64,000 nt of DNA from Pseudomonadota bacterium (GTDB lineage: Bacteria; Campylobacterota; Campylobacteria; Campylobacterales; Sulfurospirillaceae). This document shows positions 21,219-31,446 of the stretch, piece by piece. Positions within the stretch are counted from its first letter, which is position 1; each line of letters begins with the position of its first letter. The stretch spans positions 62,001 to 126,000 of the forward strand of contig JAGDMU010000005.1 in assembly GCA_017860615.1 (NCBI GenBank). The letters are read 5' to 3'. The notes below the pieces were generated by a model. The model ran no database searches. It saw nothing but the letters and a program-made list of their open reading frames with translations, and had not been told where the DNA came from. The position numbers were made by a program, and so were the translations under genes.

Positions 21219-22346
21219 TTAGCGGTTTTTTTTCAACAAAAATTCCCGTCCAACTTTAACTCTTGGAGTGCTTCCATAAGCGATGATGTCGGCAGTAGCA
21301 TTGGTTTCACTCCAACGATCTGGAAGGAATGAGCCTGTACCGATGATGTCGATAGGAGCTTTTGCCCATGCCATCGAACGGCACTTTTGCGGTGTAAAAC
21401 CCGAAGATGCGATGATGCGCACTTTTGAAAAACCTGCATTATCGAGGTTTTCTCGCATACTCCAAATAGCTGCGGCAGAAACGCCTGTGCCAATAAGATC
21501 GTGCAGTTCCGCTTCGGTACGGTAGTCACGCACAGCGTCAGGTGCATGGCGACCTAAAACATCATAGCTTTTTTGGGTGTCAAGTCCCTCTAAAAAACGT
21601 CCACCGTGGGTGTCGAGGCGTACGGCTATTTTTCCCTCTTGCGCTAAAGTAGCAAAAGCGTTGCACACTTCTAGGGTATCGGTGATTTCACGTCCGAAAT
21701 AGTCTGCTAAGATGGGGATATTTTCTTTTGGGAAACATTCATGGAACATCTGAGCAGCTTTAAGTGTCGAGCCTGCATAGCCGATGAGCGCATGAGGAAC
21801 CGTACCCAGACCTTTTTCTCGTCCAAAAAAATGCGCCGTTGCATCGGTCGCATTACCTATGAAACCGACCGCTCCCAGTTTACTTTGCGCAACTTTTGAG
21901 CCGACCGATGCGCCATACGCCATCATCTCAGCCATTTCTGTTCCTGCGCAATGGCGTGCGTCCATCGCTAAAAAAGCGACGTGGGGAAGTATTTGGCACA
22001 TCTCATACGCGTTGTAAGCGGCGACACACGCTGAACCTAACTTTTGTAAAATGAGTGTTTCAAGCTCCGCCAGAAAAGCAAAAGAACCGCTGAGATAAAA
22101 CAGAGGCTCCCCAGCCCCTACCCATTCGCCCTCTTCGTGCAGCACTTCGATGGTAACGCTCATGCCATGCTTTTGTGCTTGTGCTTGAGCCCATTCGGTA
22201 GCTAGGCGTGTTGCAGAAAGGACAGGACGGCGTAAAAAGAAAGCATACGTGACTTCGGTATCACCAAAATGTTCGATGATCGCTTTGGTATTGGAAAAAT
22301 ATTTATCTGTCCATGCAGATACATCAGGTTCATTACTGTTTTGCAT
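21219..22346 (-). CDS. Nicotinate phosphoribosyltransferase-family protein
   Basis: The 375-residue cytosolic protein has the type II phosphoribosyltransferase barrel pattern: DARHCAGTEMAEMMAYGASV, FIGNATDATAHFFGREKGLG, HALIGYAGSTLKA, VRLDTHGGRFLEGLD and SSGFTPQKCRSM, ending in IDIIGTGSFLPD. It probably converts nicotinate and PRPP to nicotinate mononucleotide in NAD salvage. It is somewhat short compared with E. coli PncB (about 400) and matches the archaeal/short bacterial form. Start supported by GGAGCT upstream. It diverges from the ferredoxin gene. Confidence 0.85.
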   Translation of the reverse strand: MQNSNEPDVSAWTDKYFSNTKAIIEHFGDTEVTYAFFLRRPVLSATRLATEWAQAQAQKHGMSVTIEVLHEEGEWVGAGEPLFYLSGSFAFLAELETLILQKLGSACVAAYNAYEMCQILPHVAFLAMDARHCAGTEMAEMMAYGASVGSKVAQSKLGAVGFIGNATDATAHFFGREKGLGTVPHALIGYAGSTLKAAQMFHECFPKENIPILADYFGREITDTLEVCNAFATLAQEGKIAVRLDTHGGRFLEGLDTQKSYDVLGRHAPDAVRDYRTEAELHDLIGTGVSAAAIWSMRENLDNAGFSKVRIIASSGFTPQKCRSMAWAKAPIDIIGTGSFLPDRWSETNATADIIAYGSTPRVKVGREFLLKKNR

Positions 22347-22843: not shown

Positions 22844-25831
22844 TTAAAAGATCGGGCACTCTTTACCATAGCAATACTGGTTAAATTTCTTCTGATCGCA
22901 TTTTGTTTCCATCTCCGCTAAAAGTTTGACATTTAAAAACGTCTCAGACAATGATGAAGCGATGTTGAGCGCTGTCCACACCTCTCTATGACAACAACGA
23001 GCTGCTTCATACTCCGCGATTTTTCCAAGCACTGCATACGTGACTTTTTGCGCTTGGCTTCGTGCTTTTTTTGCCACAGGTGAAGACTCTAACACAATGG
23101 CAAAACCAATGCCCACACCACTGGCTGCTCCACAAATGCCTAAAAATCCACATGATCCACCCATCACACTAGAACCTCTTGAAAGCGCTGTTTTCAGAGC
23201 GCTTTCGCTGACTTTGCCACCACTGTTTTTATACGCCGTCACAATGATAGCAGGCACCATCACATGGTGTTCTGGTCCGTGTTTGGGGATGCTAGGATGC
23301 TCTCGGATCTGCTGAAATAGTTTAAGCATATCGCGCTCTTTAGATGTTTTACAGATATGCTCTATCACCACTAACGCCTCTTTAGCATGGCACGCATCGC
23401 ACACATAATGTCCCGCTTTGCATGTCACACTTTGGTGGCTCACACTGCCACAGTAGTAGCATGTAGCTTCTTGCAATGTCGCCTCATACACAAGCTCCGA
23501 TGTGCACACCATACAGTTATGGCTCTGTTTTGGTGGTGTTAAACCAAACGAAATTTTCACCGTTGGTTTGGGACTCAGGAAAAGGCTCGGTTTTGCCTCA
23601 GGAGGTGTCGCACAACAACAGCTCTGCCCCTCTTGGTTACGCACATCTCCTTTGGCATCCAGTATAAACAGCTCGCTTTCCAACCGTTTGGCTAAAGCCT
23701 CATCAATGCGTGTTTTAATGCCCTTAAAAAGTGTGATACCATTTTCAAAGGTAAGGCTTTCGGCAATTCCTTTGAAGATCACGTCAACCTGTTTTTGCGC
23801 ATTTGGCTTGTGCGCCTCAAACGTGAGCGAGTAAAAGGTGTGCCCCTGCACTTCACGGTAAAAAAAACGTTTAATAAGCGAAATATTTTCAAACCCACTC
23901 TCACGAAGAAGCCCTAAAAGATGGGCTTGCGTAAGCGCTCCACCGATGCACTCACCGCTTAGTTTCGCGTCATTGCGAATGATGGCACTCGCCTCTTCAT
24001 CGCAGATGACATCAGAAACCACAAGCCTTCCACCTTTTTTTAAGACTCGAAAGATTTCTGCAAACAGCTTGCGTTTGTGACTGGAAAGGTTCAGCACGCA
24101 GTTGGAGGTGATGACATCAAAACGCTCATCTTCCTCTGGCAATGCTTCAAGATAGCCTTTTTTAAAGTTTAGATTATTATATCCTAGGCTTTGTGCCACT
24201 TCTTCCGTGCCACTTCGGGCAATTTTCAGCATGGAATCCAACATATCGACTCCGACAACACGCCCACTTTTACCTACCAGTTTAGAGGCGATGAAACACT
24301 CAATGCCTCTGCCAGAACCTAAGTCTAACATCGACTCGCCCTGCTTTAGCTTCGCATCTAAGATGGGACTGCCACAGCCATACCCACGGAATCGCAAATG
24401 CACAGGAATATGCGAAAGGTACTGCTCTTCGTAGCACGCAGGATTGAGGATGCTTTCTTTGTCCGCCAATGCCGCGTCATGGTAAAAAGCTTTTACCAAT
24501 CGCAACGATTCGCTCTCGCCTGGAGCAAGCAGACAATTCGCATGGGTATGTGCCACACCCTCATTTGCCCCACAACTCTGTAAAATGTCGCCCATTTCTA
24601 GGCATAAAGCAGGTTTTTCAAGTCTATCGTAACGCTTTGCTTCTTGACAAATCAGCCATAACGCAAGTTTCTCTAAAAGTGGCTCATACAGGTCATTGCC
24701 CATAAAGGTTTTGGCATGAGCAAAGCTATGGTCTAAGTCGCCACCTCCAAGTAAAAAACGAAGAGGCGAAGTCAGTGACGTAATGGACTGTGAAGCAATT
24801 GCTTTAGCCACCTTACTCCTCAGTGCTTCAGTAATGCTTTTTCCTTCCATTAAAAGCGCACTCTCCCCAACCATCGCGGCACTGGGGTAAAAATGCCCAT
24901 CGTACCCTAACGCAATGGAACTGCGTCCCGAGCTAGAGCCATCGTGTACCGTGCCTTTCGGGGCGAAGATTTGTGTTTTGAGCGCTTCAAAATTGTCGAT
25001 GACTAAGCCTAATTTTTGCGCTTTTTGATACGCGTTGATGAGGGTTTTAAAGAGAACATCGTGCGCGATAAAGCCCTCATTTTCACCACGTCCGCGCGAA
25101 AAATACCACAAGCAATGCAAATGCCCCGCTTTAAGCTCACTTGATAATGCTACAATTTCTTCTAAACTCTGAATATTTAAAGGATGCAAACAAACGGAAA
25201 GAGAGAACGAATAACCCGCTTTTTGAAGCCAAGCAATGTTTCGCTCTAACTTCTCAAAACTCCCCTCACCTCGAATCGCATCATGCTCATAAGGAAGTCC
25301 ATCAAGACTGATTTGAAAGTGCAGTCGCGATGTGGGAAATGCTTGTTGGCTAAAGACTTTTTCAAGCAACATGCCATTGCTCAAGATGACCACTTCGGTA
25401 TCGCTCAGTGCTAAAATCATCTGGGTTAAAGCAAGTAGATCAGGATGCACCAACGGTTCACCACCACTGATGATGAAAAGACGACACCCCAGCGTGTACG
25501 CCTCGTTTACATGTACAATTATTTCTTCCAAACTCAGCATATCTTTCTCTGTGGGTGCAGAGCTAAAAAGGCAGTGTGAACAGGTAAGATTGCAACGATT
25601 GGTCAGGTGTATCCAAAACTCTTGGAGTGTTGTTTGAGAGGGTTTTTTTGGTACATACACTAAAGGATTGGGTGCAGAGATGCGGTGTTGTAACTGCTGA
25701 TATCCCACTGTATTTTCACCATTTTGCAACAACTCATCCGCACTCGCATTGGGCACAAACCAGTCCGCACTGTGACGATGCACGTAAATAGAGCATCCCT
25801 CAAAAACCATTCTTTGCCAGTTATTTTTCAT
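22844..25831 (-). CDS. Three-part fusion: radical SAM + ArsM-like methyltransferase + DUF5714-like domain
   Basis: The 995-residue protein has three regions. Residues 70-350 are a radical SAM domain with the cluster motif CNLTCSHC (Cys80, 84, 87), GGEP at 123-126 and a SPASM-like tail with more cysteines (410, 420, 433). Residues 460-680 are a SAM methyltransferase with the SAM motif LDLGSGRG (502-509) and the three arsenite-binding cysteines of ArsM in their usual settings: GYGCGSPI (486), TSNCVLNL (578) and SGECIGGAL (628). A CCC triplet follows at 738-740. Residues 770-993 are cysteine rich, with paired zinc-ribbon-like motifs (CMVC, CYYC, CDAC), GGSCGFLGICGAASG and RCCHRE, matching what I know of DUF5714. 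It overlaps the TVP38 gene upstream by 11 bases and ends the operon. It probably methylates and further modifies a metalloid such as arsenic; the exact reaction is inferred. Confidence 0.8.
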   Translation of the reverse strand: MKNNWQRMVFEGCSIYVHRHSADWFVPNASADELLQNGENTVGYQQLQHRISAPNPLVYVPKKPSQTTLQEFWIHLTNRCNLTCSHCLFSSAPTEKDMLSLEEIIVHVNEAYTLGCRLFIISGGEPLVHPDLLALTQMILALSDTEVVILSNGMLLEKVFSQQAFPTSRLHFQISLDGLPYEHDAIRGEGSFEKLERNIAWLQKAGYSFSLSVCLHPLNIQSLEEIVALSSELKAGHLHCLWYFSRGRGENEGFIAHDVLFKTLINAYQKAQKLGLVIDNFEALKTQIFAPKGTVHDGSSSGRSSIALGYDGHFYPSAAMVGESALLMEGKSITEALRSKVAKAIASQSITSLTSPLRFLLGGGDLDHSFAHAKTFMGNDLYEPLLEKLALWLICQEAKRYDRLEKPALCLEMGDILQSCGANEGVAHTHANCLLAPGESESLRLVKAFYHDAALADKESILNPACYEEQYLSHIPVHLRFRGYGCGSPILDAKLKQGESMLDLGSGRGIECFIASKLVGKSGRVVGVDMLDSMLKIARSGTEEVAQSLGYNNLNFKKGYLEALPEEDERFDVITSNCVLNLSSHKRKLFAEIFRVLKKGGRLVVSDVICDEEASAIIRNDAKLSGECIGGALTQAHLLGLLRESGFENISLIKRFFYREVQGHTFYSLTFEAHKPNAQKQVDVIFKGIAESLTFENGITLFKGIKTRIDEALAKRLESELFILDAKGDVRNQEGQSCCCATPPEAKPSLFLSPKPTVKISFGLTPPKQSHNCMVCTSELVYEATLQEATCYYCGSVSHQSVTCKAGHYVCDACHAKEALVVIEHICKTSKERDMLKLFQQIREHPSIPKHGPEHHVMVPAIIVTAYKNSGGKVSESALKTALSRGSSVMGGSCGFLGICGAASGVGIGFAIVLESSPVAKKARSQAQKVTYAVLGKIAEYEAARCCHREVWTALNIASSLSETFLNVKLLAEMETKCDQKKFNQYCYGKECPIF

Positions 25832-26429
25832 ACGCTTCTAACCTCTTCTTGACACGTTGTTTTAAAACCATCGACACCACCACAAGTACTATCAATAACC
25901 CAACTGAGATGTAAAACTCCCTACTTCCAAAACTCAGCGACTGCGCACCTATGTTGGCATATACCAAAACACCTGGAAACATGCCCAAAAGCGTTGCGAA
26001 GAAAAAATCACGGTAGCGAATCGTTGAAAATCCTGCGCTGTAACTGATGATATTAAAAGGAACGAGTGGCACAAGACGAAGAAGTAAAATCATCACAAAA
26101 CCATGCTTTTTGACACGAGTTTGAAAGTTAATCAGTTTTTCATGCGCCAATTTTTCACGCATTTTGTTCCCATAAAGTCGTGCAAGGTAAAATGACAACG
26201 TACCGCCACACAGTGCGCCGAAAACAATGTAAAGACTTCCCCACGCAAAGCCAAAAATAAGCCCACCTGCAAGGGCTAAAATGCCATCAGGAAAAAAAAT
26301 AAGTGGTGCCAATGTGAAAAGAAGTATGAAGATAAGCGGTGCGTAGATGCCAAAGCTAAGCACAAAGGTCTTGATCGATTCGACGTGTGAAAAGGAGAGA
26401 ATACCATTTTTATAAAAAACAAACATCAA
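25821..26429 (-). CDS. TVP38/TMEM64 (DedA-like) membrane protein A
   Basis: The protein has five to six hydrophobic stretches with the SNARE-associated/TVP38 core: PLIFFPDGILALAGGLIFG, FGALCGGTLSFYLARLYG, LLLRLVPLVPFNIISYSAG and LGMFPGVLVYANIGA. Family members are membrane proteins linked to lipid scrambling or transport. The coordinates start at a TTG (26429) followed by ATG (26426), but neither has a ribosome binding site and the first membrane helix would be cut. The frame is open upstream to an ATA codon at 26463-26465 with AAGGA six bases before it, which would give an N-terminus of KKVILFLAFGLLMFVF type; see findings. It overlaps the radical SAM fusion by 11 bases. Confidence 0.75.
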   Translation of the reverse strand: MMFVFYKNGILSFSHVESIKTFVLSFGIYAPLIFILLFTLAPLIFFPDGILALAGGLIFGFAWGSLYIVFGALCGGTLSFYLARLYGNKMREKLAHEKLINFQTRVKKHGFVMILLLRLVPLVPFNIISYSAGFSTIRYRDFFFATLLGMFPGVLVYANIGAQSLSFGSREFYISVGLLIVLVVVSMVLKQRVKKRLEAYEK

Positions 26430-26461
26430 AAGCCCAAAGGCTAAAAAAAGAATGACTTTTT

Positions 26462-27565
26462 TTATGCGTTATCCTTTAAGGCGCTGATCATCTGACGTGA
26501 GCTAAAACGGTTGTACCATTTTTTAAGTGTGCCCTGCTCTTCTTGTTTCATCTCAAATGCAGGGTTAAAAATGAGATCAAGCAGATGCACGCCATTTTTG
26601 CCCCCTTTGCTCATGGACTCAGCGCAACTTTGGCAGTAACTCACGATGCTTTCACATTCCGTTTGGTGGGCGCGTGTGCGCATCTGTTCATGTGCCAATG
26701 CCGCATGGGTAGACTCCAACATGCCGCCACTACCACAACACAAGGTTTTTTCACGGTTATTTTTAAACTCTTCATAGGGCAGTTGTAAAACGTCTAAAAG
26801 CGCTCGAACATCATCGTGTATTTTTGTTTCATAACGTGTCGGGCATGGGTCATGCAGTGCCATCATAGGAGTGTTTTTATGACGCTCTTTTGCACTAACA
26901 GGTAGTCCAATCTCTTTTAAGAGTGAATAGAGTGAAATGATTTTGATATGTGGCGCATAGGTTTTAAGACTCATAAAACAGTTCTCACACGCCGTTACAA
27001 CGGTAGTTGCGCCCATACTTGCCAAGTCTGTTTCAAGCTGTGAGTGGTATGTGTTAAACTGTTTCATGTCACCCATCATACGCGTAGGGGTACCACAGCA
27101 CTGCTGAATAATGCCAATACCTGAGCATTTGGTCTGTAAATAATTAAATACCGTATGAACAAGACTCGGAGAGTACGAACTAAGTGCACATCCTGGCATA
27201 AATGCCATGTGGGTGTACTCTCCTTTGGTAAACTTTTTTGTAGTAGAAAAAAGTTTTGAAAAACTACTTTTTTGGTGAAAGATTACGCCACCATACCCAT
27301 ACTTTTTCAACACTTTTTTATCTTCCGCATAACTCTTTTTAGAAGCGGTAAACACTCCTCCAAAATCAATATCTTTAGGACACATATGCACACATAACCC
27401 GCAATTTGCACACGCAAACGCCATCTGCGAACTTGGAAGTTCTGTTGTAAATTTTGTAAGCAATTTTTTGGGTGAAATGGTAAAACTGTAGAGCATCGGA
27501 CAGCCCTTCATACAGCTCCTACAATCCAAACACTCACGCTCATACGCTTTGATCTTAGCGTCCAC
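26462..27565 (-). CDS. Iron-sulfur protein with two [4Fe-4S] motifs and CCG domains (GlpC/HdrD-like)
   Basis: The 367-residue cytosolic protein has N-terminal ferredoxin motifs CLDCRSCMKGCP (about 14-25) and CANCGLCVHMCP (about 51-62), then two CCG-type domains: FMPGCALSS with CCGTPTRMMG and CENCF, and HDPCPTRYET with CCGSGGML and CQSC. This is the build of GlpC, LldE and HdrD-type subunits that carry electrons or act on disulfides and quinones. The start is a GTG at 27565 overlapping the TVP38-B gene by 11 bases, and the ribosome binding site is weak. It is sandwiched between two TVP38 genes, so it may act at the membrane with them. The partner and substrate are unknown. Confidence 0.78.
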   Translation of the reverse strand: MDAKIKAYERECLDCRSCMKGCPMLYSFTISPKKLLTKFTTELPSSQMAFACANCGLCVHMCPKDIDFGGVFTASKKSYAEDKKVLKKYGYGGVIFHQKSSFSKLFSTTKKFTKGEYTHMAFMPGCALSSYSPSLVHTVFNYLQTKCSGIGIIQQCCGTPTRMMGDMKQFNTYHSQLETDLASMGATTVVTACENCFMSLKTYAPHIKIISLYSLLKEIGLPVSAKERHKNTPMMALHDPCPTRYETKIHDDVRALLDVLQLPYEEFKNNREKTLCCGSGGMLESTHAALAHEQMRTRAHQTECESIVSYCQSCAESMSKGGKNGVHLLDLIFNPAFEMKQEEQGTLKKWYNRFSSRQMISALKDNA

Positions 27566-28226
27566 GATACACCCGCTTGATAAGATAGATCAAAATAGAA
27601 ACAGAAAAGAGAATCAAAAGCCCGTAAACAATGGTCTTTGCCCCACCTGTGAGCATCTCTCCTGCATAGGAGTACACAAGCGTTGCAGGCAGTTGTCCCA
27701 CACCTGTAGCCAATAAAAATGAGCGAAGTTTCATCGACGTGAGTCCTGCAGCATAACTCACCACATCAAACGAGATAAACGGAAGCAGCCTTGCGATGAG
27801 GATCGCATAAACGCCATGCCTTTCAAAAAAGGCATCAACACTCTCTAACGCCATTTTACTGGTCAGCTTTTCCACCACATCACGCCCCAAAAATTTGGCG
27901 ATGTAAAAACACAACAATGCCCCAACCATGGCACTTACCCAAGAAAGAGCAGCTCCATACATCCAACCAAACAGTGCGGCATTGGCAAAGGTGATGAGAA
28001 ACGCTGGCAAAGGTGCGAGTATGGCTTGAAAGACCATCAGCAAAAACGAAATGAGAGGTGCGAGTATACCAAACGAGAGGATGTACTCTTTGATTTTATC
28101 AATGTCCAAACTTTGAAACAGCGCCACTAATTCAAAAAAATAGTTTCTGCTTTGAGGACAGATGAAAAAGAGGGTAAGCGCGACACTACTTAAAAGCAGT
28201 ATCGCGATTTTAGAAGGTTTGAGCAT
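27555..28226 (-). CDS. TVP38/TMEM64 (DedA-like) membrane protein B
   Basis: The 223-residue protein has an N-terminal helix (IAILLLSSVALTLFFIC), then the TVP38 core: APLPAFLITFANAALFGWMY, GALLCFYIAKFLGRDVVEKL, LIARLLPFISFDVVSYAAG and GVGQLPATLVYSYAGEM. It is paralogous to protein A on the other side of the iron-sulfur gene. The start overlaps the stop of the rhodanese lipoprotein by one base (TAATG). Two TVP38 proteins in one operon suggest a heteromeric membrane unit or transport of product or lipid. Confidence 0.85.
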   Translation of the reverse strand: MLKPSKIAILLLSSVALTLFFICPQSRNYFFELVALFQSLDIDKIKEYILSFGILAPLISFLLMVFQAILAPLPAFLITFANAALFGWMYGAALSWVSAMVGALLCFYIAKFLGRDVVEKLTSKMALESVDAFFERHGVYAILIARLLPFISFDVVSYAAGLTSMKLRSFLLATGVGQLPATLVYSYAGEMLTGGAKTIVYGLLILFSVSILIYLIKRVYRGR

Positions 28227-28672
28227 TATTTGCTAACGGCTAAAACGTCTTTGATTTTATCGCGTGGCCAACCGTATTGACCGTCTTTAAGCGTTAAAAG
28301 TTGCTCTTTTTTGAGCCCTTTTTCTAAGAAAAAGTCATACGCTCTATCTGCTCCTCCACCGCCTCTTGGGCAGACGATAATCACTTTTTGATCAGGCTTG
28401 ATGTTAGGAATAATAGCCGCTAATCTTGCTTTTTCATCATCCGTTTTGACAGGATACGCATAGGTATCAAGCGCACCTTTGAGGTGTTCTTCCTCAAAAT
28501 CTTTCTTCTCTTGGATGTCCACCAAGACGATTTTAGAGGCGTCTTCACGCATCAATTTTGCAGTCGCTTCTGCATCAATATAGTTATATTTAGCCTTTGG
28601 CTCAACTTTTCCACCACATCCAATGAGCAATAATGCTGCAAAGAGTAACGCTAACAATGAAGAGAGTTTCAT
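28226..28672 (-). CDS. Rhodanese-domain lipoprotein
   Basis: The 148-residue protein starts MKLSSLLALLFAALLLIGCGG, a lipoprotein signal with cysteine in LLIGC, followed by a rhodanese domain: IVLVDIQEKKDFEEEHLKGA and the active loop VCPRGGGGADRAYDF with a catalytic cysteine. Rhodaneses move sulfane sulfur (or can reduce or bind arsenate or selenium species). I chose the ATG at 28672 with GGAG upstream; a longer frame would run into a repeat element and has no lipoprotein signal at its start. It is the first gene of the minus-strand operon rhodanese-TVP38-CCG-TVP38-radical SAM fusion. Confidence 0.85.
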   Translation of the reverse strand: MKLSSLLALLFAALLLIGCGGKVEPKAKYNYIDAEATAKLMREDASKIVLVDIQEKKDFEEEHLKGALDTYAYPVKTDDEKARLAAIIPNIKPDQKVIIVCPRGGGGADRAYDFFLEKGLKKEQLLTLKDGQYGWPRDKIKDVLAVSK

Positions 28673-28714
28673 CGATTCTCCTAAAGGAAATTTTTTCATG
28701 TAAGGATTTGGGAA

Positions 28715-28879
28715 TAGACTTCTTTCATAACCCTTGAAAAGATAAAGAGTTTGCTCAGAGTGCATTAATTTTTGAAACTCAAAATTGAGTCATAGCTGAA
28801 GCTATGGCGATGTTTTTAGTTTCAAAAAGTGATGGGCTATCAGCAACACTCTTTTTCAAGGGGTTATGAAAGAAGTCTA
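28715..28879. repeat. 165-base nested inverted-repeat element, MITE-like
   Basis: The left end TAGACTTCTTTCATAACCC (from 28715) matches the reverse complement of the right end (to 28879) over about 25 bases with one extra base, and the ends close on TA. Inside are further inverted repeats: TTTTTGAAACT / AGTTTCAAAAA and the hairpin CATAGC-tgaa-GCTATG, so the whole element folds on itself. It lies between two divergent genes, which argues against a terminator. No coding capacity for a transposase. A short relative with the same ends lies at 14183-14238. Confidence 0.55.
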
Positions 28880-28987
28880 ATGTATCAAAAAGAGCAGTTT
28901 CATGTCACTTTTGATGTACGCTTAAACCTTAAGCCATTACATGAGTTAGGTGGTATGATAAGCTTTTGTGACTTAGAAAAAGGTTAA
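28880..28987 (+). CDS. Possible small protein of 35 residues
   Basis: An ATG-started frame directly after the inverted-repeat element encodes 35 residues (beginning MYQKEQFHVTFDVRLNL and ending SFCDLEKG). The sequence looks more protein-like than random and ends 63 bases before the kinase gene. The ribosome binding site is poor (AGAAG). It may be a leftover of a gene interrupted by the element, or noise. Confidence 0.2.
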   Translation: MYQKEQFHVTFDVRLNLKPLHELGGMISFCDLEKG

Positions 28988-28991
28988 CACG

Positions 28992-29022
28992 GTCAATGTT
29001 TGTTGACTACTTTTGCTATAAT
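28992..29022 (+). promoter_or_regulatory. Promoter and inverted repeat upstream of the kinase/transferase genes
   Basis: TATAAT at 29017-29022 is a good -10 box. GTCAA-N6-TTGAC (28992-29007) just upstream is a perfect five-base inverted repeat, possibly an operator overlapping the -35 region. A GTG start with AAGGA follows about 30 bases later. Confidence 0.5.
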
Positions 29023-29050
29023 AGCGCTTTGACGCGTAAGGACTTAAATC

Positions 29051-30145
29051 GTGAAAACTGAACATGAGATTCTACAATATATCGATAATACACCTGCTTT
29101 AAAAGCTTTTTTCCAAAGCCCTCCTTTGCGTGTAGAAGAGATTGGAGATGGTAACTTAAATTTTATCTTTCGCATTCGTGACGAAAGTGGAGCTTCACTC
29201 ATTCTCAAATACGCAGCGCCCTATCTTAGGCTATTGGGTGAAGATTTTCCTCTCCCGCAAAATCGTATTTGCGTCGAGATGCACACACTAACCTATTTTA
29301 AAAGCATTGCGCCTGCATTCATCCCTCGTATGTATCACCTCGATGAAGAGGCGTTTTGTTTTACCATGGAAGATCTAGCAGGTTATCAGCTCTTACAAAC
29401 GGCTCAATTCGATCAGTTTATCGCCCCCTCCGTGTACTCCAAACTAGGCTCGTTTTTAGCAACCCTTTATACCAAAGCACCTCCACCAAAGCATGAAGTA
29501 CATTACTATGAAAACGCAACCCTAAAACGCATCAGTGAAGAGTATATTTTTATCTTTCCATACATTGAAAATCACCCTGCTCTGATACTTCCTTCCCATT
29601 TTACGCCTTCGCCTAAAAGTCCTCTGTTTATGCAGAACATTGAACAGCTCTTACATCTTTTTCAAACGGAAAAAGAGTGTTTGATTCACGGCGATTTCCA
29701 CACAGGTTCGGTGATGATCAAGCATGAAAGTCTTGCCATTATTGATGCCGAATTTTCACTTTTTGCCCCTTTGGGATTTGACATCGGCACACTCTTTGCG
29801 CACATCATTTTTGGTGAGATTTACAACTGCTTTGAGAAAAAACCTGTTCAGTTTCAGCCCATTATTCGTTCCCTTTGGAAAACCTTTGCAAAGAGTATTG
29901 GCAATGTTCCTGAACACATCGTGCAGCAGAGTGTTGGGTTTTGTGGAGCGGAGCTTTCACGCCGTTTGGTAGTCCCTGCTAAAGCCAAACCTCTTGAAGC
30001 TATACGCACGTTGGAAGGAAAAACCAACGCTTATACCGTGTGTGAAAAACTCAGCATTGAAATGGTTGAGCGCTTTTTAGAGATGAAAAGCGTGGAAGAT
30101 TTTATCAGCCTTGTGGAGCGGCATTTATGCGTCAAAACGCGCTGA
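29051..30145 (+). CDS. Methylthioribose-kinase-like (MtnK/APH-fold) small-molecule kinase
   Basis: The 364-residue protein shows the choline/aminoglycoside kinase fold in the version used by 5-methylthioribose kinases: EEIGDGNLNFIFRI, SLILKYAAPYLRLLGEDFPL, catalytic loop CLIHGDFHTGSVMI (about 216-229) and IIDAEFSLFAPLGFDIG. MtnK phosphorylates 5-methylthioribose at C1. The start is a GTG with AAGGA upstream. The gene overlaps the transferase fusion by 19 bases, so the two products likely act in one route. Given an ArsM-like protein next door, a methylated-metalloid ribose is an attractive substrate, but ordinary methylthioribose cannot be excluded from sequence. Confidence 0.78.
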   Translation: MKTEHEILQYIDNTPALKAFFQSPPLRVEEIGDGNLNFIFRIRDESGASLILKYAAPYLRLLGEDFPLPQNRICVEMHTLTYFKSIAPAFIPRMYHLDEEAFCFTMEDLAGYQLLQTAQFDQFIAPSVYSKLGSFLATLYTKAPPPKHEVHYYENATLKRISEEYIFIFPYIENHPALILPSHFTPSPKSPLFMQNIEQLLHLFQTEKECLIHGDFHTGSVMIKHESLAIIDAEFSLFAPLGFDIGTLFAHIIFGEIYNCFEKKPVQFQPIIRSLWKTFAKSIGNVPEHIVQQSVGFCGAELSRRLVVPAKAKPLEAIRTLEGKTNAYTVCEKLSIEMVERFLEMKSVEDFISLVERHLCVKTR

Positions 30146-31446
30146 TTCTTTTTATGAAAGCTCCCGTGCTTGGTCGTGTGAAAACACGCCTTGCGCAAAG
30201 CCTTGGCGAGGAGTCTGCTACCACGCTGTACCGCTTGATGTGCGAACACCTCCTCACGCTGCCACACAACAGCGATGTTATGGTAGCTTATGATGATGAA
30301 GCAAGAGCCTCTTTGCCTCCTTACTTAGAAGGAACACCTCTTTTTTATCAAACGGGTGATGATTTGGGAGCGCGGATGAAAAACGCCTTTGAAACGGTGT
30401 TTGCTCAAGGCTATAAGAGCGCTATCTTGGTGGGTTCTGACATCCCCGAAGTAGATGAGCGCATTTTAGACGAAGCCTTTACCTTACTTGCTCAAAACGA
30501 TGCGATTCTTAGCCAAACACACGATGGTGGGTACTACCTCATCGGCTTTCATCAAAAGACGTTTTGCAAAGCTGCATTTGAGGGCATTGCGTATAGCCAA
30601 AGCGATGTGTATGCCAACACCCTTTTAAAACTCGTACATCTACGTGTAGCGCAAGGTGTTATGCTTCGGGACATTGACACGTTAGACGATTTGCGTACAT
30701 TTTTAAAAACTGCATTTTCAAGCCCTTTGTGTGATTTTGCTAAACACGCTTTAAAGGCACTTCCTAAAATCAGTGTGATTATCCCTGTATACCATGAAGA
30801 TGAAACATTGCTTCTCACCATAACGCATTTAAGGGCTATGGCTTACACCCAATCTTATGAAATTATTGTCGTTGATACCCATGCCATTACCACAGTACAC
30901 CGCTTCACGCTTGAAAATGTGCACCTAGCTTACGCCAAAAAAGGCAGAGCCAATCAGATGAACGAAGGTGCACTTAAAGCGCGCGGTGAAATACTGCTTT
31001 TTTTACACGCCGATACGCGAACACCACAGCACTGGGATAGATACGTAGAAGAAGCATTACAGCATCATACAGCAGGAGCATTTTCACTTGGAATTGATGA
31101 TAAACACCCGGCACTTAGGTTGATCGAAATGATGGCAAATCTTCGCACCTCCATCACCCAACTTCCTTACGGCGACCAAGCCCATTTTTTCAAAACCTCT
31201 TTTTTCAAAAGTCTTGACGGCTACGCAAACATTCCCTTGATGGAAGATGTGGAGATGATGCAACGCCTAAAAAAACGAGGTGAGAAGATCGCTCTTTTAA
31301 AACCTAATGTCTTAACATCTGCTAGAAGATGGCATAAAGAGGGCATCCTTTACACGACGCTTCGCAACCGAGTTTTAAGTTTTCTCTATAGTGTAGGTCT
31401 TTCGCCAGAAAAATTAATCCAATACTATCAAACGCATCGAAACTAA
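30127..31446 (+). CDS. Fusion of TIGR04282-like (DUF2064) and TIGR04283-like glycosyltransferase domains
   Basis: The 439-residue protein joins two enzymes that are usually separate. Residues 1-195 are the DUF2064/CofC-like nucleotidyl- or glycosyltransferase domain (LILFMKAPVLGRVKTRLAQ; VGSDIPEVDER; THDGGYYLIG). Residues 214-439 are a GT2-type domain with the TIGR04283 marks KGRANQMNEGALKARGE, LFLHADTRTP, LPYGDQAHFF, PLMEDVEMM and TSARRW. These families are known as rSAM/selenodomain-associated transferases 1 and 2 and are now linked to arsenosugar biosynthesis. No membrane segments are obvious apart from a weak C-terminal one. It follows the kinase with a 19-base overlap. Confidence 0.85.
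   Translation: MRQNALILFMKAPVLGRVKTRLAQSLGEESATTLYRLMCEHLLTLPHNSDVMVAYDDEARASLPPYLEGTPLFYQTGDDLGARMKNAFETVFAQGYKSAILVGSDIPEVDERILDEAFTLLAQNDAILSQTHDGGYYLIGFHQKTFCKAAFEGIAYSQSDVYANTLLKLVHLRVAQGVMLRDIDTLDDLRTFLKTAFSSPLCDFAKHALKALPKISVIIPVYHEDETLLLTITHLRAMAYTQSYEIIVVDTHAITTVHRFTLENVHLAYAKKGRANQMNEGALKARGEILLFLHADTRTPQHWDRYVEEALQHHTAGAFSLGIDDKHPALRLIEMMANLRTSITQLPYGDQAHFFKTSFFKSLDGYANIPLMEDVEMMQRLKKRGEKIALLKPNVLTSARRWHKEGILYTTLRNRVLSFLYSVGLSPEKLIQYYQTHRN

Follow-up and report, generated by a model that had tools for sequence, protein, structure and literature searches.

The closest described relatives of the locus reported here are the arsenosugar clusters in which the methyltransferase ArsM is found with ArsS (TIGR04167), an arsenic enzyme carrying out adenosylation (PMC12159101), and with members of the TIGR04282 and TIGR04283 families. 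A nucleosidase step has been proposed for an algal arsenolipid (PMC10456119). ArsM is paired with a radical SAM enzyme, ArsL, also in the arsinothricin cluster arsQML (PMC8552651), which features no sugar pathway, and whose radical SAM enzyme reportedly transfers a 3-amino-3-carboxypropyl radical (PMC12159101). In the literature searched we found no description of the bacterial steps following ArsS; subscription papers on ArsS fell outside the search, so these steps may be known elsewhere.

In this work, we describe a seven-gene block, located in a 64,000-nucleotide stretch of a Sulfurospirillaceae genome (the window), which probably encodes an arsenosugar-type pathway where a single protein does the work of both ArsM and ArsS. 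As in ArsM plus ArsS clusters, a putative arsenic methyltransferase and a radical SAM enzyme are accompanied by TIGR04282/TIGR04283, TVP38, CCG and rhodanese proteins; the block differs from them in that the radical SAM enzyme is not ArsS, both steps are combined with a DUF5714 domain in one protein, and a gene for an MtnK-like kinase (MtnKL) is included.

The limits of the conserved block, 22844-31446, and the coordinates of all its reading frames were confirmed by ORF check and Pfam/NCBIfam searches (Table 1). An earlier note, made from the sequence alone, had listed two VTT/TVP38 proteins, a CCG iron-sulfur protein, a rhodanese, a methylthioribose-kinase-like protein and a TIGR04282-TIGR04283 protein, and Pfam/NCBIfam models recover every one of them; the rhodanese lipoprotein is present as proposed, but with a different, more likely start. 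The five genes of the minus-strand set overlap or almost abut, and the two plus-strand genes share 19 bases.

Table 1. Features of the conserved block, in window coordinates.
Feature	Position	Strand	Evidence
995-aa fusion: radical SAM, SPASM-like fold (res 1-~440) + ArsM-like methyltransferase (~458-680) + DUF5714/MbdU-like Cys-rich part (~735-995)	22844..25831	-	Pfam/NCBIfam, alignments, structure model
TVP38/VTT membrane protein B	25821..26429	-	PF09335; conserved in genus
CCG/4Fe-4S dicluster protein, resembling the C-terminal half of NF045663	26462..27565	-	Pfam/NCBIfam
TVP38/VTT membrane protein A; weakly similar to the undecaprenyl phosphate transporter UptA	27555..28226	-	Pfam/NCBIfam
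Rhodanese lipoprotein; likelier start 28672 (MKLSSLLALLFAALLLIGCGG), frame open to 28765	28226..28672	-	ORF list, Pfam
Divergent promoter region	28673..29050	.	comparison of related species
MtnK-like kinase (MtnKL), proposed arsenoribose 1-kinase	29051..30145	+	TIGR01767 match, 2OLC likeness, tree
TIGR04282 (DUF2064, nucleotidyltransferase-like) fused to TIGR04283 (GT2 glycosyltransferase)	30127..31446	+	NCBIfam cut-offs passed

Within the intergenic region a conserved extended -10 element, TTTTGCTATAAT, lies ahead of the kinase gene and would serve the plus-strand operon. In several related species, palindromes of the TTACATGTAA type are found by both start codons (28640-29080), possibly as a shared operator. 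A nicotinate phosphoribosyltransferase-like gene (21219-22346) is retained downstream of the fusion gene in most members of the genus.

The fusion protein does contain the ArsM-like and radical SAM domains recognized in the earlier note, which had missed its third part, DUF5714, and had likened its radical SAM part to ArsS-type enzymes. The radical SAM domain occupies residues 75-228 (Pfam/NCBIfam), and the cysteines of its CX3CX2C motif (C80, C84, C87) are invariant across 26 sequences. Membership of the ArsS family was rejected on three grounds: the 995-aa protein scores 47.6 bits with TIGR04167, below the family threshold of 300; DUF3641, the C-terminal domain of ArsS, is absent from the fusion and present in the ArsS-ArsM protein of G116, a genome of a sister genus; and, in profile comparison with ArsS, the alignment covers 138 columns at 20% identity and does not extend beyond the radical SAM core.

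In the predicted structure of the fusion protein (mean pLDDT 81.7), the folds nearest to the radical SAM part are those of peptide-modifying SPASM enzymes, CteB (Z 28.3 over 381 residues, starting from residue 3) and anSME (Z 25.9). As read from the aligned range, the first 50 residues or so appear to match the CteB peptide-binding domain, while no SPASM auxiliary-cluster cysteine is conserved in residues 290-375, where they are replaced. The placement outside the ArsS family, the closeness to CteB and other SPASM enzymes from residue 3 onwards and the replaced cysteines would all suit a chemistry unlike that of ArsS, for instance one in which a different fragment of SAM is transferred, or in which a carrier peptide or the Cys-rich tail of the fusion itself is modified, resulting in a different organoarsenical glycosylated by the same transferases. 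We consider this unlikely, because the fusion replaces ArsS while the genes for the later steps, one of them for a ribose-type kinase, stay the same, and these would call for a 5-deoxyribose product.

The ArsM-like methyltransferase corresponds to residues ~458-662, and scores 206.7 bits with NF008823, under the cut-off of 263. Its C486, C578 and C628 are the counterparts of CmArsM Cys72, Cys174 and Cys224, which have a role in As(III) binding (PMC12608789), and are invariant in 26 homologues. The predicted model matches the ArsM fold (CmArsM, 4fr0: Z 27.5, rmsd 1.8, 213 aligned residues, 40% identity).

The third part is assigned to DUF5714 (PF18978) with 198 bits, and residues 735-995 share a Cys-rich region with MbdU (NF045648), listed as a predicted selenoprotein (PMC13188914), with 134 bits, under the cut-off of 600. 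In contrast to MbdU, which has two selenocysteines, the region contains cysteines only, without UGA-coded selenocysteine, and is fused to radical SAM and ArsM-like domains; 15 cysteines between 740 and 992 are invariant in 26 sequences. Fold searches gave no significant match of DUF5714 to a solved structure, which does not by itself show a new fold, and no mention of this domain was found in the literature searched. A C_GCAxxG_C_C protein is encoded after ArsS in Campylobacter-type clusters (L096:9566-9988, L095:8819-9211); its kinship with DUF5714 was rejected, with a profile-comparison probability of 0.3%.

The full fusion was found in 11 of 200 genomes of the order, all within the family of the window, 10 being of its own genus and the eleventh of a neighbouring one; in G020 it is broken into two reading frames, for which a sequence error is the probable cause. 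The earlier note had named the lack of a conserved neighbourhood in other genomes as telling against its reading, whose core idea withstands this test: the seven genes and their divergent layout are conserved in the genus, and in G116 part of the block is set alongside ArsS-ArsM. In S. arcachonense (G091) the set kept together is reduced to the fusion, MtnKL and TIGR04282/TIGR04283 genes, a minimal cluster which marks the core of the block.

Outside the family, a collection scan detected the fusion, at 41-47% identity, in 28 further loci, some of them cut by contig ends, mostly from Desulfuromonadales and other Desulfobacterota, and one in a record titled Candidatus Anammoximicrobium. Frequent neighbours are TVP38, CCG, rhodanese or pyridine-nucleotide oxidoreductase genes; TIGR04282 and/or TIGR04283 genes are present in the surrounding piece examined at 7 of the 28 loci, and do not adjoin the fusion in most Desulfuromonadales. 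Among 21 fusion genomes from outside the Campylobacterota, two have no TIGR04283 match and seven more only one below the cut-off. Both the distance at most Desulfuromonadales loci and these missing or low matches weigh against the proposed pathway. At one locus (L055:1063-3744) genes for a double-cubane-cluster reductase, a possible electron donor, and its activator ATPase lie between the TVP38 and fusion genes, and at another (L065:9103-9936) the fusion has a fatty acid hydroxylase gene as its neighbour, a hint that the product may be a lipid. A second TIGR04283 gene (263 bits), along with a TIGR04282-like one, was met at L097 (G000:C23:8000-23000), on a contig of 63% GC, as against 40% in the window, and with betaproteobacterial-looking genes, which is probably a contaminant.

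A link to arsenosugars is provided by the exchange of the fusion with ArsS. TIGR04283 is found above cut-off in 14 of the 200 genomes of the order, a set that consists of the 11 fusion genomes plus three with ArsS above its own cut-off, and of no others; no genome has both, and ArsS is missing from all 21 fusion genomes of other groups. The odds of the overlap in the order arising by chance are near 1e-21, a figure not to be taken as a true probability, because the genomes are related and the counts therefore not independent. The clearest case is G116, where the same rhodanese-TVP38-CCG-TVP38 set adjoins an ArsS-ArsM fusion of the canonical kind (TIGR04167, 360 bits), the MtnK-like kinase gene being located with TIGR04282/TIGR04283 elsewhere in the genome. 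Mutual exclusion and the G116 arrangement indicate that the fusion replaces ArsM plus ArsS; as alternative partners of TIGR04283, the two lend support to the earlier proposal of a new enzyme fusion in a pathway of the arsenosugar type.

The earlier note had left room for selenium, and the same kind of pathway might act on selenium, antimony or tellurium, or produce a mixed metalloid sugar: the DUF5714 part resembles a selenoprotein family, the block has neither arsR nor an arsenite pump, and Acr3 is missing from several fusion genomes. Acr3 is, however, encoded elsewhere in the genome of the window, all the As-binding cysteines of ArsM are retained and the fusion exchanges with an arsenic enzyme, ArsS (PMC12159101). 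Selenium is less likely than arsenic on these last two accounts, and we hold any other element to be quite improbable. An anti-phage role was also considered, and rejected, only distant viperin and methyltransferase matches being found.

The two halves of the TIGR04282-TIGR04283 protein pass their cut-offs (166.6 bits against 134, and 226.9 against 182, respectively). The kinase is related to MtnK (TIGR01767; 2OLC), with which it shares the HGDxHTGS motif, the overall sequence and, as we propose, 1-phosphorylation of a 5-substituted ribose. It differs from MtnK by a VPAK motif, by an identity of about 27% to the MtnK proteins of the same order, and by a TIGR01767 score of 231.6 bits (177 for the G116 copy) which misses the cut-off of 275. 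In the tree, MtnKL proteins form a separate clade with support 100/100, within which the G116 kinase is nested among those of fusion genomes.

Homology to MtnK could suggest a role of the kinase and transferases in methionine salvage or in sugar metabolism at large, in which case their position in the block would be accidental. True MtnK proteins, however, are 403-411 aa long and score 490 bits, and at all six loci read their gene adjoins mtnA, which was confirmed by a model match in two cases and by similarity of the reading frames in the others. No mtnA was found in any fusion genome checked within the family of the window, where methylthioribose salvage would thus have no follow-on enzyme, and the methionine salvage role was rejected. 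Together with the separate clade of MtnKL and the fusions of a kinase to TIGR04282 that accompany ArsS in other families, this makes salvage or chance association highly improbable.

Across the 32 Campylobacterota genomes with TIGR04283, linkage of this gene to an MtnK- or APH-type kinase is seen in 31; the remaining one, G205, has a contig end at this locus. The kinase is MtnKL in 16 genomes (14 fusion genomes, the ArsS genome G116, and G458); in 12 others, each of which has ArsS, it is of the APH type and forms an in-frame fusion with TIGR04282; an MtnK-like gene is divergent to TIGR04283 in one, and in two a true MtnK-mtnA pair lies 3-6 kb off. The last two (L145 and L146) are canonical ArsS-ArsM clusters with methionine-salvage mtnK-mtnA genes at that distance. 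In-frame fusion points to consecutive steps for kinase and TIGR04282, and the kinase step postulated in the earlier note is thus backed, by these fusions and by the absence of mtnA, beyond what its reader could know.

Postulated there as well was a housekeeping nucleosidase, and an MTA/SAH nucleosidase (MTAN) gene is nearly universal in the genomes of the family. No MtnKL was found in the 21 non-Campylobacterota fusion genomes, in a search with no positive control in the set; MTAP is present in 19 of these, versus none of 16 Campylobacterota tested. This fits MTAP on the one hand, and nucleosidase plus MtnKL on the other, being two routes to the same sugar 1-phosphate, since MTAP would yield the 1-phosphate in one step; MTAP also tracks phylogeny, and the two routes are therefore something that we infer.

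Arsenic as the element, adenosylation, the order of the steps, the acceptor and the roles of the DUF5714, CCG, TVP38 and rhodanese proteins are likewise read from gene content and relationships. The ArsM-like part, which has the necessary cysteines, would methylate As(III); the radical SAM part, judging from mutual replacement rather than family membership, would add a 5'-deoxyadenosyl group as ArsS does, and DUF5714, rich in invariant cysteines, may hold or pass on trivalent arsenic. The housekeeping MTA/SAH nucleosidase, if it accepts this substrate, would strip adenine, and MtnKL would then form 5-arseno-ribose 1-phosphate, to be converted by the TIGR04282 half to a nucleotide sugar, from which the TIGR04283 half would move the arsenoribosyl group onto a glycerol- or lipid-type acceptor. 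CCG might donate or accept electrons, and the TVP38 pair might work at the membrane. More tentatively, the fusion may represent a second As-adenosylating radical SAM enzyme, originating on the SPASM/peptide-maturase side of the superfamily and not in ArsS, contained in one chain with ArsM and with DUF5714 as a Cys-based arsenic carrier, and supplying a nucleosidase-kinase-nucleotidyltransferase-glycosyltransferase route shared across arsenosugar synthesis in bacteria.

Candidate enzymes for the steps after ArsS can now be named, tied to each other by fusions between their genes and by a complementary pattern of gene loss, and the later steps of the pathway become directly testable. If the proposal is true, arsenosugar synthesis reaches Sulfurospirillum, Desulfuromonadales and others by way of a non-ArsS enzyme, and surveys based on arsS would overlook these organisms.
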